Notes under the pieces: generated by a model | The model's input: the letters and a program-made list of their open reading frames with translations, nothing else | The model's database searches: none | What the model was told of the DNA's origin: nothing | Assembly: GCF_012027615.1 (NCBI RefSeq) | Contig: NZ_SNUT01000001.1 | Coordinates: forward strand, 1 to 64,000 | Direction: 5' to 3' | Origin: Thermococcus sp. 21S7 | Lineage (GTDB): Archaea; Methanobacteriota_B; Thermococci; Thermococcales; Thermococcaceae | Length of the DNA stretch: 64,000 bases | In this document: piece by piece, positions 45,656 to 62,958 of the stretch | How the letters are laid out: every line of letters begins with the position of its first letter | Position numbering within the stretch: position 1 is the first letter of the stretch | Position numbers and translations under genes: made by a program

Positions 45656-46171
45656 ATGGGTTACATAGTCTTCGTCACGTACGATAACGATGCCGAGAGA
45701 AAGCGCATAGACTATCTTCTTGACAAATGGTCCTCACGAGCAACTGTAAAAAAGCCCCGAGGGGCGGTGTTCTACATTGAAACCGACGAACCGCAGGAGT
45801 TTCTGGAGGAGCTGTTCTCGCGGCTCGAAGGCAACGCCGGAGAAAAGGTTGAAGTGTACAGCGCGAGGAGAGTTGAGAACAGAATCAAAGCAAAGCGGAG
45901 GACCCTTGAATACACAATCAGCGAAGAGAGAAAGGTCGTTGAGAGGTTCATCGACTACCTGCTATCCAAAATGAACGCCGGCTATTCCCACTCGGAAAAC
46001 GAAGCGAAGGTTTACAGCGTGTACACCCGAAAGGGGAGGGCCACCATAAGGGCCACCATCGACGGAGACGGGAGAACGAAGGTTGCCCTGGAGATTGAAG
46101 GCTACGGCGATGCCGTTGATTTTCTCGCCGAAAGAATAGACGAGGAGCTTAAGCTCTTCGCGGGTGATTGA
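45656..46171 (+). CDS. Hypothetical two-domain protein at the head of the cluster
   Basis: 171 residues. The first 75 residues have the beta-alpha-beta pattern of a ferredoxin-like or ACT-like fold (GYIVFVTYDNDAERKRIDYLLDKW, AVFYIETDEPQEFLEELF). The second half has an alpha-beta layout (VVERFIDYLLSKM, RGRATIRATIDGDGR, VALEIEGYGDAVDFLAERI). No membrane segment or metal site is seen, and I do not recognise the family. The ATG at 45656 has GGTGCAT upstream. Its stop lies one base before the next gene's ATG (46173), so the pair is coupled. Its constant pairing with the coiled-coil protein could be tested in other genomes. Confidence 0.65.
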   Translation: MGYIVFVTYDNDAERKRIDYLLDKWSSRATVKKPRGAVFYIETDEPQEFLEELFSRLEGNAGEKVEVYSARRVENRIKAKRRTLEYTISEERKVVERFIDYLLSKMNAGYSHSENEAKVYSVYTRKGRATIRATIDGDGRTKVALEIEGYGDAVDFLAERIDEELKLFAGD

Positions 46172-46172
46172 G

Positions 46173-48020
46173 ATGGGGATATTTGAGGAAGGACGAACAG
46201 ACTGTGTTAAAGAGCTTTTGAAGCCCGCCGAACGCGTCTTAAAGGAAGGCCTCGACATCGGTGTGGAAAGCTTTTCCAGAAGGGAAAGACTCTGGCTCCA
46301 GATTGAGGAAAACTACGACCGCTACCTCGACGGCGAGTGCGGGGAATTCCTGCGGGACCTTGACATGCACTTCAGGGGCAAGTTCGAGGGGGCCCTGGCA
46401 ATACTCGCCTGGAGCTTCAGGCAGAACGGTGAGACCTACCTGCCCGCAAGCAGGAGATACAGAGACCGGGAGCTGGAGGCCCTCGAAAGGGTTCTCCGCT
46501 ACAACGTCTTCGAGATATACTCAAAGGAGGACGTGATGAAGAGGATAATGCACCGGGACAGCAACATGCTCGGTCTTCTCAGGGAGTACTATCACGGCGT
46601 GGACAGGTGGATTGACGATGCCCTCAACGACCCCTCGATAAAGCTCCCGCTCAGACAGTTCCTCAAGACAAAGTGGGATTCCTACAGGGGCAAGGTGAAC
46701 GCGGCCATAGCCGAGGCGACGGTGCGCTTTGACTGGTTCAGGGACTTCCTCACGATGGCGGGGGAGGAGACGCAGGCCGTTGAGAGGACGTACCAGAGGA
46801 GACTGGAAGCCAAGGAGAGGGAAATGGACGAGCTGAGGAAACGGATGGAAGAAATGCGCGGTAACTTCGAGAGGGAAAAGGAGGAACTCAGGAGAAGGAT
46901 TGAGGCCGCAAAGGAAGCCGAGATCGAAAAGCTCATCCGGGAAAAAGAGGAGATGCGGAGACAGTTCGAGGAGGAGAGGCAGAGGCTCATCGACGAGATA
47001 AGCAGAATGAAGGACGAAGAGGCAAGGAGAATGCTTGAGGAAGAACTCGACAGGATGCATAGGGAGATGATGGCCGGTATCGAAGCCATGGAGGCCGAGA
47101 TACGGAGAAAAGAACTCGAACTCAGAGAGAGGGAAATGGAACTCAGAAAGAGGGAGCTTGAACTCAAAGAGAAAGAGGAGGGGGTCTCAAGGAAGATAAA
47201 GGAAGTGATGAGCCTCGCGGGTAAGGTTGAAAAGGGCTCACGCTTCGTCAGGCTCGACGAGGCCAGGATGCTTGAGATGAACTTCGTCGGAAGGATGAAG
47301 AGCAAGTTCAGGGGTGAGGTGCGGATTCTGGGGAAAACCTTCAGGGTGGAGTCCGTTGAGGAGAAGGCAACCTTCGACAAGGGTCGTTACGCAGGAAAGC
47401 TGAGCGAAAGGGACCTCAAGAACGTTCCGGACAACAGACGGGTCGATGTAAAGCTCAGGGAGAAGAAGCTCCTCGGAAAGAAGGAGGAGATAACGGTCAA
47501 AGCGCTGTTCTACGGGCGGCCCGAGCGCTACGCCGAGGTTGGCTTCGACACCGATCCGCTTGAGCTGGCCGACATCAACGCGCTCCTGGTTGACGCCCGC
47601 GACGAGATCACGAACGGCCGCATCGTTCTCCTCGTCGCCTCCCCAACGGGCTTTGAAAGGAGGATAGCCAGCTACGTCAATTCGAACGACTTCCACAGAA
47701 ACTTCATATCCGAGAACGTCTCCCTGGTTTTGCTCGACATTGAGAGCGGCGAGCTGATATACAACCCCCACGACGAGTACGCCAAAGCCTTCGAGCCCAT
47801 GCTCCGTCTTGAGAGGGACGAAGAGCTTCTGGCCAAGGTCAAGAACTTCCTTGAGGAGAGGATAACAACGAGGGGCTACGTGAGGCTTGAGGAGGCACTT
47901 GAGCACTTCACGGAGGAGACGGTAAAGCGGGCATTCCACGAACTCTCAAGGGAGAAGGGCTACATAACCAAATTCATCGATGGTGTGGGGTACGTCCTCG
48001 TTAAGGAAAGGTTCCTCTGA
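46173..48020 (+). CDS. Large coiled-coil protein with C-terminal winged-helix-like domain
   Basis: 615 residues. The first 200 are helical (RERLWLQIEENYDRYLDGECG, HFRGKFEGALAILAW). A long coiled coil runs from about 205 to 355 (EREMDELRKRMEEMRGNFERE and following heptads of E, R and K). Beyond it lies a compact alpha/beta domain (about 360-545) with VDVKLREKKLLGKKEEITVKA, GRIVLLVASPTGFERRI and SLVLLDIESGELIYNP, the order of a Rossmann-like or degenerate nuclease-like fold. The last 65 residues (LLAKVKNFLEERITTRGYVRLEEALEHFTEE ... GYITKFIDGVGYVLV) look like a winged helix. CdvA and ESCRT-II also join coiled-coil or winged-helix parts to ESCRT-III, so a recruiting role is conceivable but unproven. 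ATG 46173 is coupled to the previous gene. Confidence 0.68.
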   Translation: MGIFEEGRTDCVKELLKPAERVLKEGLDIGVESFSRRERLWLQIEENYDRYLDGECGEFLRDLDMHFRGKFEGALAILAWSFRQNGETYLPASRRYRDRELEALERVLRYNVFEIYSKEDVMKRIMHRDSNMLGLLREYYHGVDRWIDDALNDPSIKLPLRQFLKTKWDSYRGKVNAAIAEATVRFDWFRDFLTMAGEETQAVERTYQRRLEAKEREMDELRKRMEEMRGNFEREKEELRRRIEAAKEAEIEKLIREKEEMRRQFEEERQRLIDEISRMKDEEARRMLEEELDRMHREMMAGIEAMEAEIRRKELELREREMELRKRELELKEKEEGVSRKIKEVMSLAGKVEKGSRFVRLDEARMLEMNFVGRMKSKFRGEVRILGKTFRVESVEEKATFDKGRYAGKLSERDLKNVPDNRRVDVKLREKKLLGKKEEITVKALFYGRPERYAEVGFDTDPLELADINALLVDARDEITNGRIVLLVASPTGFERRIASYVNSNDFHRNFISENVSLVLLDIESGELIYNPHDEYAKAFEPMLRLERDEELLAKVKNFLEERITTRGYVRLEEALEHFTEETVKRAFHELSREKGYITKFIDGVGYVLVKERFL

Positions 48021-48826: not shown

Positions 48827-48868
48827 ACCTTTCGTTTTTCATCTTTAACTCTCATGGAGGTGCGGATG

Positions 48869-49465
48869 ATGGGAATTAGGGATATGTTTGGAAGGAAGAA
48901 CACGATTGAAAAGCTCTCGCTCAGAGAGCTCCAGGGGGAGGAGATAAGGCTGAAGAACAGGCTTGAGCGCCTTAAAAGGGACCTAAACAGGATTGAAAAG
49001 AAGAAAAAACAGCTCTTCCAGGAGGGAATCGGGGCTGACAAACTCAAGAAGAAGATGCTCGCCCAGGAGATTAAGAGCCTCGACATGGAGCAGAAGCTCA
49101 AGCTCAAGGACTTCACAACCGCCCAGCGGCAGTACACCCTCGTCAAGAACCTCATCATCGTCAAGAAGTATGAGAAGGAGCTTAGGAAGGTCGGTCTCTG
49201 GCAGAAGCTCAGCAACGTCGAACCGGAGCAGCTTGAGCAGGCGCTCATAAAGATAAACCTCGACGGCAAGGAGTTCGACGAGATGGTGGAGGGACTCAAC
49301 AGGGTGTTCGAGATGGAGATAGCGGAGTTCGAGGAGAGCGAGGACGAGACCGAGAGGGAACTCATGAAGGCCTGGAGTCAGGTCGAGGCAGGAGAAGCCG
49401 ACGTCGAGGAGGTGGCCGAGAGGGTCGTCTCGCTCGACAAGGAGCTTGAGGAGGAGGAGCCATGA
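48869..49465 (+). CDS. ESCRT-III/Snf7-like protein 1
   Basis: 198 residues with the layout of CHMP/Snf7 proteins. It starts with a short amphipathic or basic segment (MGIRDMFGRKN), like the MSxLFGK-type start of CHMP proteins. Two long basic helices follow (ELQGEEIRLKNRLERLKRDLN, KLKLKDFTTAQRQYTLVKNL) and then a strongly acidic second half (FEESEDETERELMKAWSQ, ending in DKELEEEEP). The basic-then-acidic charge distribution is typical of ESCRT-III subunits that polymerise on membranes and are recycled by Vps4. SD is GGAGGTG at 48856-48862, favouring ATG 48869. It overlaps its paralogue's start (ATGAGC). The family call rests on architecture, not on an alignment score. Confidence 0.68.
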   Translation: MGIRDMFGRKNTIEKLSLRELQGEEIRLKNRLERLKRDLNRIEKKKKQLFQEGIGADKLKKKMLAQEIKSLDMEQKLKLKDFTTAQRQYTLVKNLIIVKKYEKELRKVGLWQKLSNVEPEQLEQALIKINLDGKEFDEMVEGLNRVFEMEIAEFEESEDETERELMKAWSQVEAGEADVEEVAERVVSLDKELEEEEP

Positions 49466-50076
49466 GCTTTTTGTCCCGGTTTTTTGGCAAGAAGAACCCC
49501 CTAGACATCCCCCTGAACAAGCTCAATGAGAGCAGGATAAAGCTGGAGTATCAGATTCAAAAGATTGAAAACGAGATAGTTGGCATCGACAGGGAAATCG
49601 CCCTCCTGTTTGAGAGGGCGAAGCACGCGAGGAGCAAGAGCGAGGAACTGACGATAGCGACGAAGATAAAGACGCTAAACCAGCGCAAGAAGAACCTTCA
49701 GAAAACCCACGCCCAGCTGAACAAACAGCTTATGCTCATAAGCAACCTCGCGATAATCAAGGAGAACGAGGCCCTTCTGAAGGACACCCCAACCTGGAAC
49801 CTGCTCAGGAACATGTCCCCGGAGGAGCTTGAAAAGCACCTTGTTGAGATGCAACTCGATGCGCAGAACTTCAACGAGAGCCTGAACAAGATGCTGGGCA
49901 TGACGGATCAGACCATCGGGGCCGGCGTCGAGTTCGAGGAGGACGAGGAGCTGGCCGAGATAATGAGAACCATCCACGCGGTAAAGGAGGGCGAGCTTGA
50001 GCCGGAGCTGGCGGCGGAGAAGGTGACGGGCGAGGAGAAGACAAAGAAGAAGGAAAAGTGGCTGGAGGAGTTTTGA
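49462..50076 (+). CDS. ESCRT-III/Snf7-like protein 2
   Basis: 204 residues, paralogue of the previous gene, to which it is coupled by an ATGA overlap. N-terminus MSFLSRFFGKKNP is close to the CHMP4-type MSVFGKLFG start. A basic helical hairpin (KLEYQIQKIENEIVGIDRE, TKIKTLNQRKKNLQKTHAQL) is followed by an acidic stretch GAGVEFEEDEELAEIMRTI, which recalls CHMP4 GFGEEFDEDELMAELEEL, and a C-terminal KKKEKWLEEF helix that could act as an MIT-interacting motif. Such proteins form membrane-remodelling filaments. A T-rich stretch after the stop may terminate the operon. An HMM search would decide between Snf7 and a PspA-like coiled coil. Confidence 0.72.
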   Translation: MSFLSRFFGKKNPLDIPLNKLNESRIKLEYQIQKIENEIVGIDREIALLFERAKHARSKSEELTIATKIKTLNQRKKNLQKTHAQLNKQLMLISNLAIIKENEALLKDTPTWNLLRNMSPEELEKHLVEMQLDAQNFNESLNKMLGMTDQTIGAGVEFEEDEELAEIMRTIHAVKEGELEPELAAEKVTGEEKTKKKEKWLEEF

Positions 50077-50146: not shown

Positions 50147-50407
50147 ATGAAAAAAGATGCCCACAAAGGAGCCCCCCTGATTGCCGCGTTCCTCATAATG
50201 ATGGTTATTGCACTCCCCGCTCATGTTCTGGCAACGAATTGGACGGTCTATAAAAATAGTCCCAAACACACGGGGGTTGCAAGTGACGCCCTCGAACCGC
50301 CATTGGTGCTTCTGTGGAAACTCGCGATGGAGGAAGGAGTCACTCTCGGAGAGGAGGCCGTGATAAAGGCAAACATAATAGTACACCAGATAACGATGGG
50401 GAGGTAA
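50147..50407 (+). pseudogene. Truncated secreted PQQ-like beta-propeller fragment
   Basis: 86 codons: a signal peptide (LIAAFLIMMVIALPAHVLAT) and then NWTVYKNSPKHTGVA, the opening blade of a PQQ-type beta-propeller. The reading frame breaks away from that family after LLWKLAMEEG and ends two bases before the next ATG. A real propeller needs several hundred residues, so this is probably the remaining front end of a deleted sensor gene, or of a fused receptor-kinase gene. It is reported as a fragment and may still be translated into a short secreted peptide. Confidence 0.5.
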
Positions 50408-50409
50408 AG

Positions 50410-52050
50410 ATGCCAAAGAGAAAACGCAGTCTGGAGGAGGATTTCATCCGCCGCCTTTTCGTTTCCTTTTTCCTGATATACATACTGAAGGATTTGGGCG
50501 TTGTCCTTGCCATTTTCATATTCCTGCCTGTGATCATCGGGTGGGTAAAGCGTCTTGAGGCGCAGGCGGCGTCGAGACCGACCGCTCAACCCAGGCCCAG
50601 CGTACGGGATGCGCTCAGAAGGGGCCTACTCGTTGAAATTCCCCCGGAACTCCACCCCAACACTGAGAGCAGGATTAGGGTCGGCTTCAGGAACGTCTCC
50701 GGGAGGACAATGAGGGTTGAAATAGGTCTTGAGAACCTCGCCAGATACGGCGAAGTATCTCCCTCCAGGATAAGGTTCACCGTTCGGAACGGGGACATTG
50801 AGTACGAATCCATCCGCTTCATTCCCAGGAAAAGCGGGAGGATACGAACCGATGTGAAGGTCAAATCGGGGATATTCCTGGTAAGGGTCCCCATTGAGCT
50901 CAACGTTAGAGAGCCCCCCGGGGATGGGATTGAGGTTGCGGTCTCAGATGAACCAAAAGACGAAAGGAGGAAGGAGTACTCCATCCCCAATGTTAAGGCC
51001 CTCTTTTCCCGCTACAGGGACGTGGAGCCGGTGGGGGAGGGAGGCTTTGCCCGGGTTTACAGGGCACGGAGAATGGACGGAAAAGTCGTTGCCCTCAAAG
51101 TGCCGTACCACCTAACCGAACAGGCCGGCAGGGCATTCCTGCGTGAGGTAACAGTGTGGAGCGGGCTGAGGCACAGGAACATCGTTGAACTCTACGACGC
51201 CAACATAGTCCCCGTCCCCTACATAGAAATGGAGTACTGTGAGGGCTCGCTGGCAAAGCTGGATAAACCTCTCCACTGGGGAAGGGTGGCTGAGCTCGCC
51301 TTTGAAATCTGCGAGGGCCTGAAGTACGCCCATTCCAGGGGGATAATTCACCGCGACTTGAAGCCGAGCAACATCCTTCTGAAGGCGGGGATTCCAAAGA
51401 TAAGCGACTGGGGATTAAGCAAGGTTGTAACCGAAAGCCGTTCAACTACAACAAGTTTCACACCCCTCTATGCCGCGCCGGAACAGATAAGCCGCTCTAG
51501 GTTTGGCCCCACCGATGAAAGAACCGATGTGTGGCAGCTCGGTGTTCTGATGTACGAACTCGTTACGGGGAAGGTTCCCTTCGATGGAGAGGACTTCGTC
51601 GAGATTGCGGGGAAAATCACGATGGAAGACCCAGACCCGCCGAGCAGGCTCAATCCCGATGCCAAACCGTTAGACCCAATAATCACCAAATGTCTCGCCA
51701 AGAGAAAGGAAGAGCGCTACTGGAGTGTTAAGGAGCTCCAGAAAGACCTAGGAGAACTCCTCGGTGGGAAGTACAGGAGGGAACTCAGAAAAAGCGTTGA
51801 TCTCTCCCGCTCGACCTACTACGCGGGTCAGCTGCTCCTTCTCCACATGAAGCTCGGTAATACCGGAGAGGCCCTAAAGTACGCCCTCGATCTGAAGAGG
51901 TACGCGAGCGGGGAGGCGGGGAAAGGGCTTGAGAAGCTCATCGAGGAGCTTGAGATTAGGTTAAACGAGGGACTGCCCATACCGGGTGAACTCGTGGAAA
52001 GGGCCGAGATACTGGTCCACGAGATCGCTCTCGGCCCTGGAAAGACGTAG
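50410..52050 (+). CDS. Membrane-anchored Ser/Thr protein kinase 1
   Basis: 546 residues. A membrane helix region (about 18-45) is followed by an Ig-like beta domain (about 70-170) and a eukaryote-like kinase domain (about 200-450). The glycine-rich loop is GEGGFARVYRA (209-219), the ATP lysine K230 in VALK, the catalytic loop HRDLKPSN (D316), and the metal-binding motif SDWG (D333) instead of DFG. APE and the following GVLMYELVTGKVPF are normal. A helical tail (about 460-546) resembles those of the other two kinases here. The start has GGAGGT just upstream. The extracellular sensing part, if any, is small; the beta-propeller fragment upstream may once have supplied it. T-rich sequence after the stop (52062-52075) is a likely terminator. 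Confidence 0.85.
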   Translation: MPKRKRSLEEDFIRRLFVSFFLIYILKDLGVVLAIFIFLPVIIGWVKRLEAQAASRPTAQPRPSVRDALRRGLLVEIPPELHPNTESRIRVGFRNVSGRTMRVEIGLENLARYGEVSPSRIRFTVRNGDIEYESIRFIPRKSGRIRTDVKVKSGIFLVRVPIELNVREPPGDGIEVAVSDEPKDERRKEYSIPNVKALFSRYRDVEPVGEGGFARVYRARRMDGKVVALKVPYHLTEQAGRAFLREVTVWSGLRHRNIVELYDANIVPVPYIEMEYCEGSLAKLDKPLHWGRVAELAFEICEGLKYAHSRGIIHRDLKPSNILLKAGIPKISDWGLSKVVTESRSTTTSFTPLYAAPEQISRSRFGPTDERTDVWQLGVLMYELVTGKVPFDGEDFVEIAGKITMEDPDPPSRLNPDAKPLDPIITKCLAKRKEERYWSVKELQKDLGELLGGKYRRELRKSVDLSRSTYYAGQLLLLHMKLGNTGEALKYALDLKRYASGEAGKGLEKLIEELEIRLNEGLPIPGELVERAEILVHEIALGPGKT

Positions 52051-52120
52051 TCTTAGGAACGTTTTATTTTTTCAAAGTTCAATGGTAACATCAATTTGAA
52101 CGGGAGTGGAGGTGTCTGAA

Positions 52121-53317
52121 ATGCCCGTCGATCTGTCCGGCCCTCTGATGTCCGCCTTCAGGAAGGCCAAAAGAGAGTTTGAGGATGCCGTGAAGAAAGG
52201 AGATAAGGAGACCGCCAAAAAGAAGGCCCTAGAATGCTCAAGAATACTCAAACAGCTGGCCAAGTACGACGAATTTAACCGAGAAAGCTATCTCCAGAAG
52301 GCCAAGAAGTGGGAAACAATAGCCAGGGACGTGGAGGCCGGCCGTTACGGGACAAAACGAAAGCACAGACCGATGAAGGAAGGGGGCAAAAGAACAAACG
52401 ACGAAGGGAGCGATGAGGAAAACGACCAGTTCAAACGCTACGTTGAGAACCTGATAACGAAGTCAAAGGTCAAGTGGAAAGACATCGGCGGTCTCGATGA
52501 GGTCAAAATGCTCATGATGGAAACGGTCGTCATCTCCGCCCTGCAGAGACCCGAATCGATCCAGCCCTGGAAGGGAATCCTCCTCTTCGGCCCTCCGGGA
52601 ACCGGCAAGACACTGCTCGCGAGCGCCGCGGCCGGAAGCCTGAACGCGACCTTCTTCTCGGTCAAGGCCAGCAACGTTCTCAGCAAGTACTTCGGGGAGT
52701 CCACGAAGATAATCTCGGCCCTCTACGAGGTGGCCCGGGAGAGGGCGCCGAGTATAGTGTTCATGGACGAGATAGACGCCCTGACCACCAAGCGCTCCGG
52801 CGACCAGAGCGAGGCATCGAGGCGGATGCTTGCGACCCTGCTGACGGAGCTGGACGGATTCCAAGACAAGGGGAGCGACGTTCTGGTTCTAACACTGGCG
52901 GCGACCAACACGCCCTGGGACCTGGACGAGGCCGTTCTCTCGCGCTTCCCGCGCAGGATTTACGTTCCCCTGCCGGATGAAAAGGCCACGAAGGAGATAA
53001 TCAGAATCAACACCCGCGGGCTGGACATAAGCAAACTCGACCTCGACGCGATAGCGGAGGAGAGCGTTAGAAGACTTTACTCCGGAAGGGACCTTAAGAA
53101 CCTCTGTCAGGAGGCTATATGGCACATGATACGCGAGGAGAACAGAAACCTCCACAAACTCGCCGAACTCCCCTTCGAGGAGCTGAGGAAGCGCTCCCTG
53201 CGGACGAGACCGCTTGAGATGAGGGACTTTGAGGAGGCGTTTAAGAGGATTAAGTCTCCGCTGACGAGGAGGGATATCGAGCGGTACGAGAAGTGGGCGG
53301 AGGAGTTTGGGGGATGA
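52121..53317 (+). CDS. Vps4/CdvC-like AAA ATPase with MIT-like N-terminus
   Basis: 398 residues. Residues about 1-75 form a helical, charged segment (MSAFRKAKREFEDAVKKGDKE, KKALECSRILKQLAKYDEF) with the spacing of an MIT domain, which binds ESCRT-III tails. A linker leads to an AAA domain with GPPGTGKT (157-164), Walker B MDEIDAL (D216, E217), and a pore loop FFSVKASNVLSKYFGES close to the Vps4 FFSVSSSDLVSKWMGES. Sensor and arginine-finger motifs follow (LAATNTPWDLDEAVLSRFPRRI). The last 20 residues (TRRDIERYEKWAEEFGG) match the C-terminal helix that distinguishes Vps4. In other archaea such ATPases disassemble ESCRT-III polymers. ATG 52121 follows GGAGGTG. The receptor-kinase gene begins two bases after its stop. 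Confidence 0.82.
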   Translation: MPVDLSGPLMSAFRKAKREFEDAVKKGDKETAKKKALECSRILKQLAKYDEFNRESYLQKAKKWETIARDVEAGRYGTKRKHRPMKEGGKRTNDEGSDEENDQFKRYVENLITKSKVKWKDIGGLDEVKMLMMETVVISALQRPESIQPWKGILLFGPPGTGKTLLASAAAGSLNATFFSVKASNVLSKYFGESTKIISALYEVARERAPSIVFMDEIDALTTKRSGDQSEASRRMLATLLTELDGFQDKGSDVLVLTLAATNTPWDLDEAVLSRFPRRIYVPLPDEKATKEIIRINTRGLDISKLDLDAIAEESVRRLYSGRDLKNLCQEAIWHMIREENRNLHKLAELPFEELRKRSLRTRPLEMRDFEEAFKRIKSPLTRRDIERYEKWAEEFGG

Positions 53318-53319
53318 GA

Positions 53320-56300
53320 ATGACGAGAAAGAGTTCAATCCTACTGGTCTATCTCCTTCTCGTGATGCTCTTTGCGAGTCCCTCCTCAGCCAGGAGGGTT
53401 TATACAGATACACTTCCAAAAGACGGCTACGCAGACACCATAGAGGTACACGGTGTCCTGAACCCCGAGAGCGCTATCCTCCAGATCGCCAAGGGCGAGT
53501 ACGACCTGGGAATGTTCGCTTTCAATGCCAACAAATATCTGGGCTTGGGCAATGATGTTCTGGCCAAGCTTAACCTGTACAAGAGGGCCAGCTCGTCCGT
53601 CGAGCTGAGCATCAACCCATACAAAGATCCGAATAAGGATGCTCCGATTGTTACCGCCGGTGACAAGGTTTATTTCAACCCGTTCGCCATCAAACAAGTC
53701 AGATTCGCACTAAATTATCTCATTAACCGGGAGTACATCGTCCAGAACATCTACCAAGGAAGCGGTGCCGCCGCCCTCAGTGGCATCACTCCGAGCGACC
53801 CGGCTGCCAAGTACTTCACTCCGGTTTACGATGCTCTCCACCTTACAGGCTCGGGTAATGAAGAGCTTGCCCTTAAGCTGATAGCTAACGCTATGGATGA
53901 GGCCGCCAAGCAGGTTGCCAAGTACGGCCACACTCTGGAAAAAAAGGGTGGAACCTGGTACTTTGACGGTCAGCCGGTTACCATCAAGTTCATCATTCGT
54001 ATCGAAGACGAGAGGAAGGACATAGGCCTTTACATCTCTGACCTCCTTGAGAAGAAGGTTGGATTCAAGGTTGACAGGATGCTCCTCGATAGGCGGAAGG
54101 CGAGCGAGATTGTTTTCGGGAAGCCGATCAGCACCTACGAGTGGAACCTCTACACCGGAGGTTGGATTACCGGAAGCATTAAAAGCAAATATCTGGACTG
54201 GCAGATCTACTACTGGTACTCACCGCTTGGCTACTACCCGAACTTCAACGACCCGAGGCACCAGCCCGACGTCACCGTTGAGGACGCCCTCAGATACATT
54301 GGGGAGGGAAGTGTTACCGCTGGTCTGCAGAAGCTTGAGACCAAGTACTACACCAGCGAGGAGAGCCTTGGCCCAATACTCAAGTGGACCACCAAGGAGA
54401 TTGGTTACATCATCCTTAACGGCCAGTACACGGATTCCACGACCGGCAGTACCATAGTTCTCAGCAATGCCGACCAATACTGGGATCTCCAGAAGGTAGG
54501 CATCCTTGTTGGAATTATGGATAGTGTTAGGATTTTCCTCGTTGAAACTTGGGAGTTTTATCCGGGTAACAAGGCCAGGGTCAGCAAGATCCTCAGCGAC
54601 GACAGCATTGGCATCGCCAGCCGGTGGAGCATCATGACCGCCGAGACTCCGGACAAGCACCTTAAAATCGTCCAGAACACACCCACCGGCGCCATGTTTA
54701 TGAGCGCCTTTAACCCGATTAGCGGCATCACGGATATTAACAGCGCCCTTATCTGGGATCTGATTCATGACCCCGGTGGAACCACCAGTTTCGATGGTGT
54801 CTACGTTCCGTACAGGTGCAAGTGGGAGCTTGAGCGCGGTCACTTCACTGTCCCGGACGATGCGGTCATCTACAACCAGACCCAAGGCTGGATTGCTGAG
54901 AACGCTGGCAAGGATGCCGCCGTCAAGGTCAAGGTCACCTGTGACTTTGGCCAGTGGCACAACGGCGTTAAAGGCAACATTGACGACCTCAAGTACTACA
55001 TTGCATTCCTCTACACCTGGGCCTACAAAGACACTCCAAACGATCAGTACTACGATGCCTCCTTAAGTAACTTTGCTACCACTTACAAGACATACTTAGG
55101 TTTTCAGTTTACTGACAACGGTTACGTAGTTTACGGCACCTACGTCCCATCTTTTGCCGATGATCTCACCGCCAGCAACTACATCCTCTATCCGCAGCTT
55201 CCGTGGGAGCTTTACTGGGCTATGGGTGAGCTCGTGGCCAACGCGAAGCAGTACGGCATCGACAAGACCTACTCCTTCAGCAGCGGCTCCGAAAACGACT
55301 ACTGGCTAGATCTTCTGAATAAACAGCACGTTGGCGATCTGTCTAAGGTTCTCGACTATGCGGCCACGTATGGAAGGTTCAAAACGAGCTTTCCCGGGCT
55401 GCCGCTCAATAGCCTAAAGAACAGAGCCGAGGCAGACCTGTCGTTTATGGATACATACGGGCATCTTGCAATAAGCAACGGGCCATATAGACTAGTCGAG
55501 TATTCTCCCGAAAATAGATATCTAAAGCTGGTAAAAGTTACAAAGGAAGAGGAAGCGGATGGTGCAACTTCGGGTGCCGTTACCACGACTACCACAAGCC
55601 CACACACCTCCACCGAAACCAAGGCCACCACTACGTCCCCATCTCCATCCACGACCTCTCCCTCCCCCACTCTATCAAACAGCGAGACATCATCTTCCGA
55701 AACGACAAAACTCCTGCAGGGGGAATCCCTCCCAGCATCCACGGGACAAACCGGATGGGCAAACCCAACCTATCTGATCGCCGCCCTCGTTGGCCTGATA
55801 GCAGTCGGCGGCGTCGCCGCCAAAGCCCGGGGAGGAAAATCCAAACCCTCATCTTCCATGGAAGCAGCCGCAAAGCCAGCGCCGACCCCGGCGAGGAAAC
55901 CCGAATCCAAACAGTACGCCCCGCCAAAAAACGTCCCCTACTTCCCGCCGGAGCTCCTCGACAAATATGAGCCCCTCGAATTTCTCGGCGAGGGCGGCTT
56001 CGCCAAGGTCTTCAAAGTAAGGAGGAAATCCGACGGAAAAATCATAGCCCTCAAAGTCTCCCGCCTCGACGAGAAGGCCAAGAGGTTCTTCCTCAAGGAG
56101 GTCAAGGCCTGGCGCCTCCTCGATCATCCGAACATCGTGAAGCTCTACAACGCCTTCGACGAGCCTCTACCTCACCTTGAGATAGAGTTCGTGGACGGAA
56201 TTCAACTCGACGGAGAGGTAATCAGGGATCTCGGGAAGTATCCGAAACCAACCGGCGAAGAAACCGCATTGGCGCTCGTCAGAGGCATCGCCGAGGGTCT

Positions 56301-57099
56301 AAAGCACGCCCACTCAAAGCAGGTCTACCACCGCGACCTTAAGCCCCAGAACGTCCTCATAACGGGTGATTTAACGCCCAAGATAACCGACTGGGGGCTG
56401 GCCAAGGTCGGCGCGGTTTCCACAACGGCAACGACCACCAAGGGACTAACCCTCCTCTACGCGGCCCCGGAGCAGCTCGACGACGAGACCTACGGCCACA
56501 CTGACCAGCGGACTGACATCTACCAGCTCGGTCTTATATTCTACGAACTCCTAACGGGCAGGCTTCCCTATCAGGGAACCTCCCCCGCCGTCGTAATGGC
56601 CAAGGTCATCAACCCGGCAGTGAAGCCCAAACCGCCGAGCCACTTCAACAAGGCCTTGGCAAAATACGACGGCATCTTTGAGAAGCTTCTCGCTAAGGAG
56701 AAAGAGCAGCGCTACCCGAGCGTGGAAGAGTTCCTTAGGGATTTGGAGCTGATGAAGAAGCTCGACGAGGAAAGGAAGACCTTGGAAGAGGAAATCGAGA
56801 AGACAAAAACGACTATGAGCCTTACAACGGACAGCAGAGAGCTCAAGAAGCTCATGCGCCAGCTCGTGAAGCAGCTGAGCAGGAACGCCCTCCTTCACGC
56901 CCAGTTGAACGACAAAGCTGGCCTGATCAACGCGCTCGAAGACATCAAAGCCTTCTCCAGAGAGCACAGGAATGAGCTTGAGAACGCCATAAGCCAGTTC
57001 GAGGTGATGATGCGCGAAAGCGTCCCTATAAGCAAGGCCACCCTGGACGAGCTTAGGGTTCTGCTCCATAAAGTGCAGAGGGAGGTTGAGGAAAGATGA
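53320..57099 (+). CDS. Receptor Ser/Thr kinase 2 with a periplasmic oligopeptide-binding-type ectodomain
   Basis: 1,259 residues. Signal peptide (about 1-25); an extracellular domain of about 720 residues resembling family 5 solute-binding proteins (NPFAIKQVRFALNYLINREYI is the family hallmark); a Ser/Thr/Pro-rich stalk (about 748-815); a membrane helix (about 817-836); a short linker; and a kinase domain (about 870-1150). Kinase motifs: GEGGFA (890-895), K912, HRDLKPQN (D1006), TDWG (D1024). A helical tail ends the protein. It looks like an ABC-transporter binding protein fused to a cytosolic kinase, which would let an extracellular sugar or peptide control phosphorylation. ATG 53320 is used; ATG 53314, overlapping the preceding stop, is also possible. 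It shares four bases with the PP2C gene. Confidence 0.87.
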   Translation: MTRKSSILLVYLLLVMLFASPSSARRVYTDTLPKDGYADTIEVHGVLNPESAILQIAKGEYDLGMFAFNANKYLGLGNDVLAKLNLYKRASSSVELSINPYKDPNKDAPIVTAGDKVYFNPFAIKQVRFALNYLINREYIVQNIYQGSGAAALSGITPSDPAAKYFTPVYDALHLTGSGNEELALKLIANAMDEAAKQVAKYGHTLEKKGGTWYFDGQPVTIKFIIRIEDERKDIGLYISDLLEKKVGFKVDRMLLDRRKASEIVFGKPISTYEWNLYTGGWITGSIKSKYLDWQIYYWYSPLGYYPNFNDPRHQPDVTVEDALRYIGEGSVTAGLQKLETKYYTSEESLGPILKWTTKEIGYIILNGQYTDSTTGSTIVLSNADQYWDLQKVGILVGIMDSVRIFLVETWEFYPGNKARVSKILSDDSIGIASRWSIMTAETPDKHLKIVQNTPTGAMFMSAFNPISGITDINSALIWDLIHDPGGTTSFDGVYVPYRCKWELERGHFTVPDDAVIYNQTQGWIAENAGKDAAVKVKVTCDFGQWHNGVKGNIDDLKYYIAFLYTWAYKDTPNDQYYDASLSNFATTYKTYLGFQFTDNGYVVYGTYVPSFADDLTASNYILYPQLPWELYWAMGELVANAKQYGIDKTYSFSSGSENDYWLDLLNKQHVGDLSKVLDYAATYGRFKTSFPGLPLNSLKNRAEADLSFMDTYGHLAISNGPYRLVEYSPENRYLKLVKVTKEEEADGATSGAVTTTTTSPHTSTETKATTTSPSPSTTSPSPTLSNSETSSSETTKLLQGESLPASTGQTGWANPTYLIAALVGLIAVGGVAAKARGGKSKPSSSMEAAAKPAPTPARKPESKQYAPPKNVPYFPPELLDKYEPLEFLGEGGFAKVFKVRRKSDGKIIALKVSRLDEKAKRFFLKEVKAWRLLDHPNIVKLYNAFDEPLPHLEIEFVDGIQLDGEVIRDLGKYPKPTGEETALALVRGIAEGLKHAHSKQVYHRDLKPQNVLITGDLTPKITDWGLAKVGAVSTTATTTKGLTLLYAAPEQLDDETYGHTDQRTDIYQLGLIFYELLTGRLPYQGTSPAVVMAKVINPAVKPKPPSHFNKALAKYDGIFEKLLAKEKEQRYPSVEEFLRDLELMKKLDEERKTLEEEIEKTKTTMSLTTDSRELKKLMRQLVKQLSRNALLHAQLNDKAGLINALEDIKAFSREHRNELENAISQFEVMMRESVPISKATLDELRVLLHKVQREVEER

Positions 57100-57842
57100 A
57101 CACGGATGGAGAGATGACCAGCCTTTTTCTTCCATTTGTATCCGGTATAAGCCACGTCGGGGGAAGGTTCAACAACGAGGACAGCTTTTTAATTCTGAGG
57201 CTGCCTGACGCGTGCATCTTGGCGGTAGCGGATGGACTGGGCGGGCACAGCGCCGGAGAGGTGGCCTCAAAAATCGCGGTGGATGCCCTGAAGGAAACGT
57301 TCTCGGGAGAATACGAGGCAGGAATTCCAGTGTATCTCGTCAGAATACTCCTCAAAAAAGCCTACGAACTTGCCCACTCCAGGATACTGGAAGACGCCGT
57401 CGGCGAGAAAGAGGGGATGGGAACCACCCTGGTTACGGCGTTCATTCGGGGAAGAGAAACCGTAATAGCCAATACCGGAGACAGCCGAGCTTACCTGATA
57501 CGGAACGGCTCGATAGCGGCCAGGACAAAGGACAATTCCCTCGTCCAGGAGCTCGTTGATAAAGGTGAGATAACCCCGGAGGAAGCGAGGAGGCACCCCA
57601 TGCGGAACATCGTGACGAGGGCCCTCGGGATAAAGTTCGGGGTTGACTTCTACGGGTGGGAGCTTAAGCCGGGGGACGTTCTTCTGCTCAGCAGCGATGG
57701 ATTACACGACTACGTTGACGAGGAGAGAATAGTCGAGATTGCTTCCTCCGGAAGAACACCTGAGGAAATTGCCAAAAAACTAATCGAGGTGGCCCTGCCC
57801 ATCACAAGGGATAACGTGACGGTGGTGGTGTTGAAGGGCTAA
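57096..57842 (+). CDS. PP2C-family Ser/Thr protein phosphatase
   Basis: 248 residues. Metal-binding and catalytic motifs of the PPM/PP2C family are visible: FNNEDSF, AVADGLGGHSAGE (two metal aspartates region), MGTTLVTAF, IANTGDSRAYL, LLSSDGLHDYV and RDNVTVVVL. It removes phosphate from Ser/Thr in a metal-dependent way and presumably opposes the kinases beside it. It starts inside the last codon of the preceding kinase gene (ATGA), so it is translated with it. No membrane segment, so it is cytosolic. Confidence 0.92.
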   Translation: MNTDGEMTSLFLPFVSGISHVGGRFNNEDSFLILRLPDACILAVADGLGGHSAGEVASKIAVDALKETFSGEYEAGIPVYLVRILLKKAYELAHSRILEDAVGEKEGMGTTLVTAFIRGRETVIANTGDSRAYLIRNGSIAARTKDNSLVQELVDKGEITPEEARRHPMRNIVTRALGIKFGVDFYGWELKPGDVLLLSSDGLHDYVDEERIVEIASSGRTPEEIAKKLIEVALPITRDNVTVVVLKG

Positions 57843-57860
57843 GCTCTCAAGTCCATCTTT

Positions 57861-57897
57861 TATACCCGCCAGGTATAATACCTCCGGGTATAAATAC
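57861..57897 (+). promoter_or_regulatory. Repeated TATACC/GGTATA operator overlapping a TATA box
   Basis: TATACC (57861-57866) is followed by GGTATA (57872-57877), ATACC (57878-57882) and GGTATA (57887-57892), so two or three overlapping inverted repeats are packed into 32 bases. GGTATAATACC (57872-57882) is a perfect 11-base palindrome. The last GGTATA runs into a TATAAATAC box (57889-57897). A bound repressor would block transcription; an activator is also possible. The downstream gene starts at 57968. Confidence 0.55.
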
Positions 57898-57967
57898 AAG
57901 ATAGAGGTTGATGCCCAATGCCCGAAAACCCCTTATCCCCAAAGACCGTAGTAAGGTGGGTGGTGAC

Positions 57968-58360
57968 ATGAAGGGGGCGTTACTGGTTGTGATTGCGCTC
58001 GTGCTGTTATCACTCATGCCCATACCTGTAGTTAAGGCCGAAGGGAGCTACTACTGGGTCAAGACTTACGGCGGCTCTGGGACTGATGTAATTAATGATG
58101 TTAAACTCCTCGATGATGGGAGCGTCATTGCAGTTGGGTATACCAACAGTTACGGTTATGACGCTGGCGATTATGATGTCTTCGTAATGAAGCTCTCCCC
58201 AAATGGGAAAGTTGAGTGGGCCAAAACTTATGGCGGGAGCGGTGATGATAGGGCTTCCGCGGTTGCTATCGCACCGAACGGCGACATCATCGTGACTGGG
58301 ACTGGTTTGCTGAGGCTGGGCCCGGATGGAGAACTCAAATGGGCAGTGGAGTTGGGATGA
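57968..58360 (+). pseudogene. Truncated secreted beta-propeller (SBBP-like) fragment
   Basis: 130 codons. A signal peptide (ALLVVIALVLLSLMPIPVVKA) is followed by two copies of the propeller repeat WxKTYGGSGxD with DGSVIAVGYT and NGDIIVTGT strands, as in SBBP/beta-propeller surface proteins. It stops after about two blades, where a full propeller needs six or seven, so the gene is cut short. Its end (WAVELG stop) lies 11 bases before the start of the next kinase. GGTGGTGAC precedes its ATG. Either the remains of an earlier sensor module, or a small secreted protein still made. Confidence 0.55.
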
Positions 58361-58371
58361 GAGGTGGGATT

Positions 58372-61300
58372 ATGGGCAATAAAAGGCTGAAAATTGTAAA
58401 AGTATTTTTACTGGCGTTCTTTTTATTCTTTGTAACATTACCAAAAGCTGAATGCAGTGCTGGAAAAATTGCCATAGTCTACGATGTGGGTGGAAGGGGT
58501 GATCTGAGCTTCAACGACATGGCCTACCTCGGTGCCTCCAAGGCCGCAAAGGACTTTAACCTCGAACTCGTCGAGCTCCAGAGCAACAGCGAGGACGACT
58601 ACTACAAGAACCTTGAGACCCTCGCCAAGGCCAAGAAATACAAGCTGATCATTGCGGTCGGCTTCATGATGACCAATGCCGTCAAGGCGGTTGCCCAGAA
58701 GTATCCAGACCAGAAGTTTGCCATCATCGACGGCTATGATCCGGACATGCCCAGCAACGTCATGATGATTGTCTTCAAGGAGAACGAGGGCTCAGCGCTG
58801 GCCGGTGCTCTCGCGGGCCTTATCGCTGCCAACGACGGCAAGGACAAGGTCGGAATCGTCCTCGGTATGGAGATACCTGTTCTCTACAAGTTCGAGGCCG
58901 GCTACCGCTTTGGAATAAAGTGGGCCGAGGAGTACTATAAAAAGAAGACCGGAAAGGACGTTGGCATAGAGGTCCTCTACACCTACACGGGGTCATTCGG
59001 CGACCCTGCCAAGGGTAAGCAGGCCGCACAGGCCCAGCTCCAGCAGGGCGCCTGGGTTATCTACCAGGTTGCTGGCGGTACCAGTCTCGGTGTCTTCGAG
59101 GCCGTCGGTGACTATCTGAAGGCCAACAACAAGAAGATGGGTCCGCCGTTCGCTATAGGCGTTGACTCCGCCCAGGACTGGATTAAGCCCGGTGTTATAA
59201 TCGCGAGCACGATGAAGCGCGTTGACGTCGGTGTTTACAAAGCCGTTGAGGCCGCGGTTAAAGGAACATTCAAAGGAGGAATCATAGAACTTGGATTAGC
59301 TGATGGCGGTGTTGGATTAAGCACTCCAAATGATGTTTGGCAGATTTTTAACACTCTCCCACCCAATATTAGACAAACAGTACTCGGTGAGCTAGGGTTT
59401 GCTGATGAGAATGAACTCTTTAAGAGGTTTGAAGAGACTAGAAAGCAGGTTCCAGACTGGATCTGGGCTGCAGTGGAGGAATTAGAAAATGAGATTAGAA
59501 ACGGCATTGTACAGGTGCCGTATGTAGTAACTAGAGATGAAATTGAAAAAATTAGAAATGGAGATATTGTAATAGACTCCTCCAAAATTCAGATAAGAGA
59601 ATACCCTACCAAAAACTGGAAAATTATTGACGTAACGACACAATCTTCCCAAACATTTACCCATACTCTCTCATCGACAACTTCAACTACAACAATTCAG
59701 ACATCAAGCTCAGCAACCCTAACAGACACCGCATCTACTTATGCACCAACAGCATCGACATCATCGAAAACTGTTTACATTCTTAGTGCGTTCTTGGTTC
59801 TTACAGTTATTGGGGGTATTATCGTCAAATCAAAGGGTTCCAAATTAAAAACAGCCCCAGAAGAAAATAAAACTACCTCATCAAACTCCGTTAAACAAGA
59901 AATTTCCTCTTCCCTGCTACAACCGACTCCCAGATACGAGGCTCTCGGGAGTTATCTTTCAGGGCTGAACAAAAGCACCGTGACGTTAAAGCTTGAGGAG
60001 ATAGAGAAAATAATTGGGGGCAAACTCCCTGATTCCACAAGAAAACACAGAGCCTGGTGGGGAAATGATAAAAGCCATTCTCACGCGGTAAAGGGCTGGC
60101 TGAAGGCCGGCTGGAAGGTCAAGCGCGTGGATTTTGAGAAGGGAATCGTTGAGTTCGAGAGGTTAATCCCAGAAAAGAAGCCAAAGCCAGCACCAGAGAC
60201 AAGGGAAGTCAAAAAGCCTGCTTTAAAGACTGAAGAACGGACGATGCCAGAAGTGAAGAAGCCCGCCCTTCCCGAACCCCCTGTTCCGGGCTTTCCATCG
60301 GAACTCCTCTCCCGCTACGAGCCCCTCGAATTCCTCGGTGAAGGCGGATTCGCCAGGGTATTCAAAGCCAAACGCAGAAAAGACGGCAAAAGGGTCGCCC
60401 TCAAGATACCGAGGATAGACGAGAGAACAAGCAAGACTTTCATCAAGGAGGTCTCCGCATGGCTACACCTCGACCATCCAAACATCGTGAAACTTTACGA
60501 TGTCGACATTCTTCCAATCCCCTACCTCGAAATGGAGTACGTCGAGGGTGTGGAGGTTGATGGTGAAACCGTTAGAGACCTCGACGGCTATCCAAAGCCC
60601 GTCGATGAGGAGACTGCGTTGAAGCTCGTCAGAGGCATTGCCGAGGGACTTAAGCATGCGCACTCAAAGGGCATCTATCACCGGGACTTGAAGCCGCTCA
60701 ACATCCTCCTTAAGGCGGACTTAACCCCGAAAATCACTGACTGGGGACTGGCGAAGCTCGGAACCATGAGTTCGAGCAGGAGTGTTCTCGGTTACACCCC
60801 GCTTTACGCGGCGCCGGAGCACTTAATGCCGAGCAAGTACGGGCACACAGACCAGAGAACGGACATCTGGCAGCTGGGCGTTACCTTCTACGAGTTATTA
60901 ACTGGGAAACTGCCGTTCGAGGGTTACACTTACGAGGAAGTCTTCGGAAAGATAACCGACGAGAACTATCGCCATAAGCCGCCCTCGGAAATCGACCCCC
61001 GGCTGGCAAAGTACGACGGAATCTTCGAGAGGCTCCTGGCAAAGAGGAAGGAGGAGCGCTACGGGAGCGTTGACGAATTTCTCGAAGACCTGGAAAAACT
61101 CGATGAGGCCGCAAAAAGGAAGGTGGAACTTGAAAAAGATGTTGAAGAGCTAAAGAAGTCCCTCGCAAGGAGCGTCGAGGCGCTAAAGAGAAGCAGAAGC
61201 TCCGAAGAAATCCTGAAGAATCGCAGGCTGGTGGTCGAAACCCTCGGCAAGCTGGCTTTGGCTTACGCCGAACTAAACAGGAAGGCAGAGCTTCTGAACA

Positions 61301-61467
61301 CGCTCAACTACCTGAAATTCTACACTGCGGAAAACTTGGGCGATTTGACGAACGCAATCAACACGGTAGAGATGCTCATTAAGGAGAACCTTCCGGTCGG
61401 CCAAGACTTCATCGAGAGGCTGAAGGTTCTCGTGCACAACATTGAGAGGGAAAACTGGAAAGCATAG
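58372..61467 (+). CDS. Receptor Ser/Thr kinase 3 with a BMP-type ligand-binding ectodomain
   Basis: 1,031 residues. Signal peptide (about 1-30); an extracellular domain of about 330 residues in the BMP/Med family of basic membrane lipoproteins (IVYDVGGRGDLSFNDMAYLG, VGFMMTNAVKAVAQKYP, YQVAGGTSLGVFEAV), which bind nucleosides or purines in bacteria; an AT-rich linker; a Thr/Ser stalk (about 425-465); a membrane helix (about 468-486); a DUF7662-like domain (about 521-600, KHRAWWGNDKSHSHAVKGWL); and a kinase (about 640-905). Motifs: GEGGFA (656-661), K678, HRDLKPLN (D772), TDWG (D790). A helical C-terminus follows. The start ATG 58372 has GAGGTGGG upstream. Base composition changes sharply near 59270-59950, so this gene looks mosaic. 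Confidence 0.87.
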   Translation: MGNKRLKIVKVFLLAFFLFFVTLPKAECSAGKIAIVYDVGGRGDLSFNDMAYLGASKAAKDFNLELVELQSNSEDDYYKNLETLAKAKKYKLIIAVGFMMTNAVKAVAQKYPDQKFAIIDGYDPDMPSNVMMIVFKENEGSALAGALAGLIAANDGKDKVGIVLGMEIPVLYKFEAGYRFGIKWAEEYYKKKTGKDVGIEVLYTYTGSFGDPAKGKQAAQAQLQQGAWVIYQVAGGTSLGVFEAVGDYLKANNKKMGPPFAIGVDSAQDWIKPGVIIASTMKRVDVGVYKAVEAAVKGTFKGGIIELGLADGGVGLSTPNDVWQIFNTLPPNIRQTVLGELGFADENELFKRFEETRKQVPDWIWAAVEELENEIRNGIVQVPYVVTRDEIEKIRNGDIVIDSSKIQIREYPTKNWKIIDVTTQSSQTFTHTLSSTTSTTTIQTSSSATLTDTASTYAPTASTSSKTVYILSAFLVLTVIGGIIVKSKGSKLKTAPEENKTTSSNSVKQEISSSLLQPTPRYEALGSYLSGLNKSTVTLKLEEIEKIIGGKLPDSTRKHRAWWGNDKSHSHAVKGWLKAGWKVKRVDFEKGIVEFERLIPEKKPKPAPETREVKKPALKTEERTMPEVKKPALPEPPVPGFPSELLSRYEPLEFLGEGGFARVFKAKRRKDGKRVALKIPRIDERTSKTFIKEVSAWLHLDHPNIVKLYDVDILPIPYLEMEYVEGVEVDGETVRDLDGYPKPVDEETALKLVRGIAEGLKHAHSKGIYHRDLKPLNILLKADLTPKITDWGLAKLGTMSSSRSVLGYTPLYAAPEHLMPSKYGHTDQRTDIWQLGVTFYELLTGKLPFEGYTYEEVFGKITDENYRHKPPSEIDPRLAKYDGIFERLLAKRKEERYGSVDEFLEDLEKLDEAAKRKVELEKDVEELKKSLARSVEALKRSRSSEEILKNRRLVVETLGKLALAYAELNRKAELLNTLNYLKFYTAENLGDLTNAINTVEMLIKENLPVGQDFIERLKVLVHNIERENWKA

Positions 61468-61546: not shown

Positions 61547-62506
61547 ATGCCGTTTGCCGGGATTGCACTAGTTGTACTAGGAGTGTTCCTTTTGATAATG
61601 CTCCTGCTGAGCGTGAAGGTTATCCGTCCGTACCAGAAGGGTCTCGTCGAGAGGCTCGGAAAGTTCAACAGAATCCTGGAGCCGGGAATACACTTCATAA
61701 TACCCTTCATGGAGCGCGTCAAGGTCGTGGACATGCGCGAGCACGTCGTCGATGTGCCGCCGCAGGAGGTCATCTGTAAGGACAACGTCGTCGTCACCGT
61801 CGATGCCATCGTTTACTACCAGATACTCGACCCCGTCAAGGTCGTTTACAACGTAAGCAACTTCCTGATGGCCATCATCAAGCTCGCACAGACCAACCTC
61901 CGTGCCATCATCGGCGAGATGGAGCTCGACGAGACGCTCTCCGGAAGGGACATAATCAACGCCAAGCTGCGCGAGGAGCTTGACAAGATAACCGACCGCT
62001 GGGGTGTCAAGATAACCCGCGTTGAGATACAGCGCATAGACCCGCCGCGGGACATACAGGAGGCAATGGCCAAGCAGATGACGGCAGAGCGTGAGAAGAG
62101 GGCCATGATACTCCTCGCGGAGGGTGAGAGGGAGAGCAAGATAAAGAAAGCCGAGGGTGAAAAGCAGGCGGCCATACTCCGGGCCGAGGGTGAGAAGCAG
62201 AGGCAGATACTCGTCGCCGAGGGTCAGGCCGAGGCAATACGAAAGGTCCTCGAGGCACTCTCGATGGCCGACGAGAAGTACCTCGCCCTCCAGTACATCG
62301 AGAAGCTCCCCGAACTCGGAAGGCAGGGCAACCTGATCGTGCCCTACGACACCGAGTCCCTAATCGGACTGCTGAGGATACTCCAGAAGGTGAAGGACAT
62401 CCCGATGCCCGAGACGCCGGAACCTTCCGGCGGCGATGGCGGGGAGGAAGTGACCCCCTCCGAGCCTGGTGAAGGCAACTCGGATTTGAACCCGGAAAAG
62501 GCTTAA
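61547..62506 (+). CDS. Stomatin/SPFH-domain membrane protein
   Basis: 319 residues. An N-terminal hydrophobic segment (about 3-25) anchors it. The SPFH domain includes RPYQKGLVERLGKF, GIHFIIPFMERV, VVDVPPQEVICKDNVV and NLRAIIGEMELDETLS. A coiled-coil C-terminal half (about 170-240, with repeated AEGE/AEGEKQ) lets such proteins assemble into membrane-associated cages. It is the archaeal stomatin type, as in Pyrococcus, whose partner is the NfeD protease or its short form. TATA-like CTTATAAG lies about 55 bases upstream. The Gly/Glu/Pro-rich tail (about 295-319) is less conserved. Confidence 0.92.
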   Translation: MPFAGIALVVLGVFLLIMLLLSVKVIRPYQKGLVERLGKFNRILEPGIHFIIPFMERVKVVDMREHVVDVPPQEVICKDNVVVTVDAIVYYQILDPVKVVYNVSNFLMAIIKLAQTNLRAIIGEMELDETLSGRDIINAKLREELDKITDRWGVKITRVEIQRIDPPRDIQEAMAKQMTAEREKRAMILLAEGERESKIKKAEGEKQAAILRAEGEKQRQILVAEGQAEAIRKVLEALSMADEKYLALQYIEKLPELGRQGNLIVPYDTESLIGLLRILQKVKDIPMPETPEPSGGDGGEEVTPSEPGEGNSDLNPEKA

Positions 62507-62538
62507 AGACCTTTTCTTAATTTTTGATGGTGGTGGGC

Positions 62539-62958
62539 ATGGAAGCGCTCCCGATTTCCCTTCTTATCCTCGGCCTCCTCGTGATAGCCCTGGACATGAT
62601 GGTTACCGCGTTCATAACCCCGATCGGAATAGCGATGGTCGTCATGGGGCTCCTGATGGGGTTCGGGGTGAGCTTCACCGAGAGCTTCGTCGCGGCCCTC
62701 ATAGCGGCGGTAGTCTCGTACATTGTCGTTAGCCGCTACGTAAAAAAGGACGTCCAGGACGCCGGAAAGGGCAAGTACACCTTCGAGCTGAAGGGCAAGC
62801 GCGGGAAAGTGGTTGAAATAGGAAAAGACCACTACATCGTCGAGCTTGAGGGGGACAGGTGGATAGCGCTGGCCGAGGGGGACGAGAAGCCCGGAATCGG
62901 CGACACCGTTGAGGTCGTCAATGTTGACGGCGTCAAACTCATGGTCAGGAAGGTCTGA
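62539..62958 (+). CDS. Short NfeD-like protein
   Basis: 139 residues. Three or four membrane helices in the first 75 residues ([54 protein letters not shown]) precede a C-terminal OB-fold domain of about 60 residues ([37 protein letters not shown]), the NfeD short form that lacks the protease. It pairs with stomatin, a conserved partner in archaea and bacteria. ATG 62539 follows GGTGG. The end overlaps the convergent amidohydrolase gene by 14 bases. Confidence 0.85.

Follow-up and report, generated by a model that had tools for sequence, protein, structure and literature searches.

Two genes on the plus strand of Thermococcus sp. 21S7, referred to here as K1 (53320..57099) and K2 (58357..61467), encode what can be considered single-pass receptor serine/threonine (Ser/Thr) kinases with ectodomains of the solute-binding protein (SBP) type known from ATP-binding cassette (ABC) transporters. 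All coordinates refer to the window, i.e., the whole 64,000-nt stretch analysed, which belongs to a 598-kb contig of a 2.37-Mb draft genome in 48 contigs. Both genes lie in an island that looks like an archaeal locus of the endosomal sorting complex required for transport (ESCRT) type, and the reading preferred here, with a probability of roughly 0.6, is that K1 and K2 sense external nutrients, that their kinases are ligand-gated and that they act on this island. Its parts differ in strength: the receptor-kinase architecture is next to certain, ligand gating of the kinase is predicted with reasonable confidence, and action of the kinases on the ESCRT-type module is about an even chance.

Domain Structure of K1 and K2

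An earlier, sequence-only reading of this DNA had proposed two receptor Ser/Thr kinases with ABC-type SBP ectodomains, and the Pfam domains, topology, catalytic residues and solved homologues bear this out. The same holds for its claim that SBP, stalk, membrane helix and kinase follow in the same order in both genes (Pfam, hydropathy), and several lines of evidence (domains, topology, catalytic residues, selection, independent relatives) give good support to its view of receptor kinases built from parts of transporters.

K1 is one unbroken open reading frame (ORF) of 1259 residues with Pfam matches to SBP_bac_5 (5e-15) and Pkinase (2.4e-44). A signal peptide (aa 1-24, 53320..53391), recognised by hydropathy and by homology to solo SBPs from aa 25 on, is followed by an OppA-type peptide-binding protein (53392..55536), a Ser/Thr-rich stalk (approximately aa 741-815, 55540..55764) in and around which homology to the orthologues is lost, one membrane helix (aa 818-836, 55771..55827; hydropathy), a PknB-type kinase domain (55966..56730, with K913, D1006 and D1024; Pfam, alignment and model) and a helical tail (56731..57096; alignment and model). 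Nearly the entire ectodomain is matched by the solved archaeal OppA-like protein 7fi3 (E 9.6e-132, in two pieces, aa 34-740). The ectodomain had been described as a family-5 oligopeptide/sugar-binding protein; family 5 stands and among solved proteins the closest homologue serves peptide transport, but nothing indicates sugar, and the circular permutation discussed below went unmentioned. By homology only, the ligands of K1 are probably peptides. A solo OppA protein of the same genome, at the head of an ABC operon in which two permease genes follow, is 77% identical to K1 aa 25-678 (dN 0.16, dS 0.82 over the ectodomain), and K1 keeps 192 of the 202 columns (95%) that are invariant in 30 solo OppA relatives. 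A recent copy of that own-genome gene was considered as the source of the K1 ectodomain and excluded, as in the tree a clade of 12 solo Thermococcus proteins, the own-genome copy among them, is the sister group of K1 (99/100). The remaining OppA-kinases form a separate, distant clade of the OppA tree.

K2, likewise an unbroken ORF (1036 residues counted from the ATG at 58357), has Pfam matches to Bmp (5.5e-54; 183.6 bits against a cut-off of 24.1), DUF7662 (3e-15) and Pkinase (3e-47). The BMP-type nucleoside-binding ectodomain suggested by the sequence-only reading is confirmed by the Bmp score, above the cut-off across the domain, by motifs of the DVGGxxDxSFN type and by two solved homologues, the archaeal BMP 4pev (3.8e-65) and TmpC/PnrA 2fqw, which share the domain order of K2 but are solo proteins, whereas in K2 the domain is tethered to a kinase. 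This BMP/PnrA domain (58474..59337) is succeeded by a Ser/Thr-rich stalk (59623..59760), delimited by sequence and by comparison of K2 orthologues, a membrane helix (aa 472-490, 59770..59826; hydropathy), the DUF7662 domain (59935..60150), also present in the G055 orthologue, the kinase domain (60316..61065, with K684, D777 and D795; Pfam and alignment) and a helical tail (61066..61464; alignment). Solo BMPs found in most Thermococcaceae genomes are 71-78% identical to the BMP part of K2 (ectodomain against solo BMP: dN 0.085, dS 1.0), and the own-genome BMP heads an ABC operon with an ATPase and two permeases. The first half of the K2 domain groups with the canonical solo clade and a stretch of its second half (approximately aa 187-236 of the query) is nearer to a permuted solo group; because of these different affinities the domain may be a mosaic. 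The end of the ectodomain has diverged. Judged by homology only, nucleosides are the probable ligands of K2. On these sequence comparisons purifying selection acts strongly on both ectodomains.

Hydropathy shows a hydrophobic N-terminus and a single internal membrane helix in K1 and in K2, basic residues following the helix, a topology that would place the SBP outside and the kinase inside the cell. The glycine loop, the VAIK Lys, the HRD Asp, the metal-binding Asp and APE are all present in both kinases, DFG taking the form DWG, and both are predicted to be active Hanks-type Ser/Thr kinases with intact catalytic residues. Of the two catalytic aspartates named earlier, D1006 of K1 stands and D772 of K2 becomes D777 in the numbering from the ATG at 58357, since the earlier reading began K2 five codons later. 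In a model of the K1 kinase and tail (mean predicted local distance difference test, pLDDT, 83) the best solved match is PknB (Z 27.9, rmsd 2.3, 245 residues aligned). The likeness to the PASTA kinases PknB and Stk1 comprises the kinase fold (34% identity to PknB) and the single-pass receptor plan; unlike them, K1 and K2 yield no Pfam match to PASTA repeats, and with 196-204 bits both fall under the cut-off of 450 of the NCBIfam PASTA-kinase model. The helical tail is common to K1, K2 and a third island kinase, K3 (alignment; K1 model).

Circular Permutation of the Binding Proteins

The K1 ectodomain does not follow the canonical segment order of SBP family 5 but is circularly permuted, as demonstrated against both 7fi3 and the solo relatives. 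K1 aa 34-442 align with 7fi3 319-723 and aa 444-740 with 7fi3 4-304, so that K1 is a circular permutation of this archaeal ABC dipeptide/oligopeptide-binding protein; in comparison with the own-genome paralogue, a 48-residue segment stands at the C-terminus instead of the N-terminus (33-80 of the paralogue, K1 694-739). A Pfam search with the C-terminal half of the ectodomain alone returned no match. One cyclic order is thus found in four rotations: that of 7fi3, that of L096, that of the common solo type and that shared by K1 and a divergent solo class. Examples of the OppA-type rotations among related Thermococcus proteins are L088:3436-5868, G000:C3:20521-22821, L096:2230-5082 and window 53392-55536. 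Two tandem OppA pairs within single open frames were also seen, G031:C1:780420-785315 (2085 aa) and G061:C36:6962-10807 (1301 aa); their arrangement suggests possible intermediates of permutation through duplication and subsequent trimming.

Solo BMP lipoproteins with exchanged halves, the second before the first, occur in the same genome (L103:3901-5187) and at 12 further loci (L110, L112-L121, L131). These 13 proteins form one clade, and the canonical order is found in the other Thermococcaceae and in K2; the exchange of BMP halves is independent of the OppA permutation. A literature search of limited coverage found no description of natural permutations of archaeal OppA or BMP. Such permutations are of interest to protein evolution and biosensor design.

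A Kinase Family with Exchanged Sensors

Close relatives of the K1 kinase are present in 30 of the 94 Thermococcaceae genomes, the named ones being Thermococcus and metagenome-assembled genomes of Thermococcaceae. The family set comprises 101 kinase ORFs, 81 of them uncut by sequence ends, with lengths of 202-1808 residues. K1 orthologues are 57-100% (mostly 80-100%) identical per 40-residue window along the kinase and tail and share little in the stalk and ectodomain, and the same pattern is seen among the orthologues of K2. Near-identical kinases carry propellers, PEGA repeats, lectins, OppA, BMP or no ectodomain at all, with the breaks in or near the stalk; Pfam identifies propellers with up to nine PEGA repeats, legume-type lectin stretches (three), laminin-G and TPR. 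A kinase with an ectodomain of OppA and PEGA was found in G025, with close copies in G018 and G062, and an OppA homologue on a kinase is also present in G067. Along the kinase tree the class of ectodomain switches 27 times or more, with coarse class labels and bootstrap support that is not settled. Related species re-use the kinase slots with different sensors, and the ectodomain is a module swapped at or close to the stalk.

Three kinds of relatives deserve separate mention. The ectodomain of the receptor kinase L062:2217-7310 contains the three legume-lectin-type stretches (Lectin_L-type 1.8e-121) and the laminin-G match. In the receptor kinases L038:11379-15308 and L053:1781-5599 a Macro domain (ADP-ribose-related) directly precedes the kinase. 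The K1-orthologous kinase L069:7763-9067, of 435 aa, has no ectodomain and no detected membrane helix, and is apparently soluble.

The slot of K2 itself seems to record one such exchange. The gene for a PP2C-type Ser/Thr phosphatase (57096..57842) overlaps the K1 stop by 4 nt (ATGA), in line with the earlier statement that both kinase genes overlap or adjoin it; for K2 this statement fails, because a 130-codon ORF (57968..58360) intervenes. This stub, consisting of a signal peptide and the first beta-propeller repeats, resembles the starts of receptor kinases elsewhere in the family (approximately 54-60% identity) and ends at the K2 start codon, with a 4-nt overlap. It is likely, from this resemblance, the remnant of a propeller sensor replaced by BMP. 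In G085, which represents a different genus, the start of a BMP gene occupies the same slot behind PP2C and is truncated by the contig end, the kinase part lying beyond it. The G085 BMP clusters (86/90) with the canonical BMPs of related genera; a single fusion shared with K2 was therefore considered and found unsupported, and the two captures may be independent. No complete BMP-kinase other than K2 occurs among the matches listed from 115 genomes of the phylum. The family offers a natural series of sensor swaps on an almost unchanged kinase, including the likely remnant of a replaced sensor, and shows a route by which receptor kinases can be assembled out of transporter parts.

The ESCRT-Type Island

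Across genomes the island has the order winged-helix/coiled-coil protein, cc1, cc2, kinase(s), Vps4-like ATPase, K1 slot, PP2C, K2 slot, SPFH and NfeD, with variations. According to a 2024 description (PMC10936438), archaeal ESCRT loci of the main clade contain Vps4, ESCRT-III, arCOG09748, arCOG08177, membrane Ser/Thr kinases (STKs) and a Ser/Thr phosphatase (STP); the small helical C-terminal domain of their membrane STKs was called PCI-like (PMC10936438). A membrane STK and an STP are both present here. The island ATPase (52106..53317) is Vps4/katanin-like, with a Vps4_C domain (34.3 bits against a cut-off of 21.3) and a match to katanin p60 across aa 104-399. Between it and two coiled-coil proteins, cc1 (48854..49465) and cc2 (49462..50076), which by island position and a weak profile match are candidate ESCRT-III proteins, lies K3 (50314..52050), with an N-terminal membrane segment and no SBP (Pfam, hydropathy). 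The coiled-coil protein at 46164..48020 has a C-terminal winged-helix-like part (HTH_DeoR, weak, E 0.044) and is the arCOG09748 candidate, and a 174-aa protein lacking a Pfam match (45647..46171) is the arCOG08177 candidate; the former was assigned by its layout and the latter by its position and size only. Domain searches identified the SPFH/stomatin protein (61547..62506) and the NfeD-like protein (62524..62958). All these genes are on the plus strand, and no permease or ATPase genes of an ABC importer were found among the island genes read (45647-62958). Taken as a gene set, the island has the appearance of an ESCRT-type locus of the archaeal main clade.

Relation to Known Systems

That archaeal ESCRT loci contain STKs and STPs had been reported in 2024 (PMC10936438). 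The STKs of those main-clade loci resemble the island kinases in being membrane proteins with a helical C-terminal domain, accompanied by Vps4, coiled-coil/winged-helix proteins and PP2C, and the PEGA and propeller ectodomains of the relatives of K1 and K2 are a further likeness; the main text of that paper, in contrast, makes no mention of SBP ectodomains, sensor swapping or a replaced-sensor stub. Fusions of an SBP-type sensor and a Ser/Thr kinase in one protein were reported from bacteria as early as 2005, in Streptomyces coelicolor (gi 21223285) and Nostoc (gi 17227840) (PMC1262709). By their description they are set apart from K1 and K2 by their Glu/Gln-type and ANF_receptor-type SBPs and by their bacterial hosts. 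A mycobacterial SBP specific for aspartate reportedly acts on protein kinase G and thereby controls glutamate metabolism (PMC6069109); there too the ligand state of an SBP is reported to control a Ser/Thr kinase, but through two separate proteins, while K1 and K2 are each one chain.

The sequence-only reading had held that the layout is not a described system. For archaea this agrees with the same literature search, in which no description of SBP-type receptor kinases was found, nor of sensor swapping with a left-over stub in such kinases; the search being incomplete, this absence is not proof. With the bacterial SBP-kinases of 2005 on record, a receptor that links solute to phosphorylation is in itself nothing new. 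That reading included neither this precedent nor the sensor-swapping family nor the archaeal ESCRT-type locus.

Proposed Mechanism and Alternative Explanations

According to the preferred reading, closure of the binding protein on a peptide (K1) or a nucleoside (K2) would alter the spacing, geometry or dimerisation of the stalks, and this change would raise or lower trans-phosphorylation. The kinase would phosphorylate itself and its island partners, the candidate targets being the ESCRT-III-like coiled coils, the winged-helix protein and Vps4, and PP2C would reset the phosphorylation, so that membrane remodelling would track nutrient supply. A more general and distinctly speculative proposal is that the receptor kinases of Thermococcales form a varying set, with their sensors taken from transporters, lectins and propellers, and that this set gates an ESCRT-type machine, external ligands directing vesicle formation or uptake. 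Receptor gating of ESCRT, if true, would give archaea a counterpart to membrane trafficking under receptor control. Little is known of what stimulates archaeal Ser/Thr kinases or of what feeds into archaeal ESCRT-type systems, and both questions can be addressed with small soluble proteins, because the ancestry of the sensors carries the likely ligand class, peptides or nucleosides.

Several observations weigh against this reading. A phmmer search with the N-terminus of the island ATPase found no MIT chain, the cc1/cc2 profile matches CdvB 9s9j only weakly (E 0.22), and a search of the genome for ESCRT-III with the Snf7 Pfam model gave nothing, an uninformative result because the control genomes also remained below the cut-off. 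The OppA branch of K1 in the tree (0.24) exceeds the branches of most transporter copies in length, so the ligand of K1 might differ from that of the transporter. An AlphaFold model of the K1 ectodomain, built from 5 alignment rows, reached a pLDDT of 38.9 and was left unused.

In place of sensing, K1 and K2 might serve as receptors for cargo, with the SBP capturing a peptide, nucleoside or vesicle cargo and phosphorylation by the kinase serving as a sorting tag for ESCRT-driven uptake or budding. This is unlikely: endocytosis is not known in Thermococcales, and the propeller, lectin and PEGA ectodomains, as well as the orthologues without an ectodomain or membrane helix, suit signalling at least equally well. 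The ESCRT-type gene set of the island does fit such a role, and cargo sorting has been proposed for a ProX SBP of a related locus in a paper that also regards phosphorylation as probably central to main-clade systems (PMC10936438). Another explanation, similarly improbable, is that general metabolism or transcription is what the kinases signal to, their ESCRT-type neighbours being merely co-located. The mycobacterial control of glutamate metabolism through protein kinase G, as reported (PMC6069109), operates without ESCRT and offers a model for it; against mere co-location, the order kinase-Vps4-kinase-PP2C-kinase-SPFH-NfeD recurs in many genomes, with overlapping genes.

That the fusions are dead ends, with the SBP modules acting as decoys or adhesins and the kinases constitutive or no longer working, is very doubtful. 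Several orthologous kinases have no ectodomain at all, so the SBP is dispensable for the kinase, and the diverged end of the K2 ectodomain points the same way; the strong purifying selection on both ectodomains, the 95% of invariant OppA columns kept and the intact catalytic residues speak against dead-end fusions. The sequence-only reading had raised two possible objections, and the one that the ectodomains might resemble no binding protein is answered by the Pfam matches and by 7fi3, 4pev and 2fqw. The other, an assembly or sequencing artefact joining neighbouring genes, draws on the 48-contig draft and the presence of the rotated K1-type fusion in one genome only, and has a negligible chance of being correct, as the joints are enclosed by long open frames of the 598-kb contig, OppA-kinases occur in four other genomes (G018, G025, G062 and G067), a BMP gene occupies the K2 slot in G085, and the OppA part of K1, being 77% identical to the own-genome copy and differently rotated, is not that copy mis-joined.

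Other Features of the Window

A HepT-like (HEPN) and nucleotidyltransferase (MNT) pair resembling a toxin-antitoxin system is inserted between the winged-helix and coiled-coil genes (window 47980-48826); the pair recurs in L049, and L079 has MNT alone. Upstream of the island, on the minus strand (window 41918-45275), a bactofilin/hexapeptide-like protein, identified by a weak match, adjoins a long coiled-coil protein.

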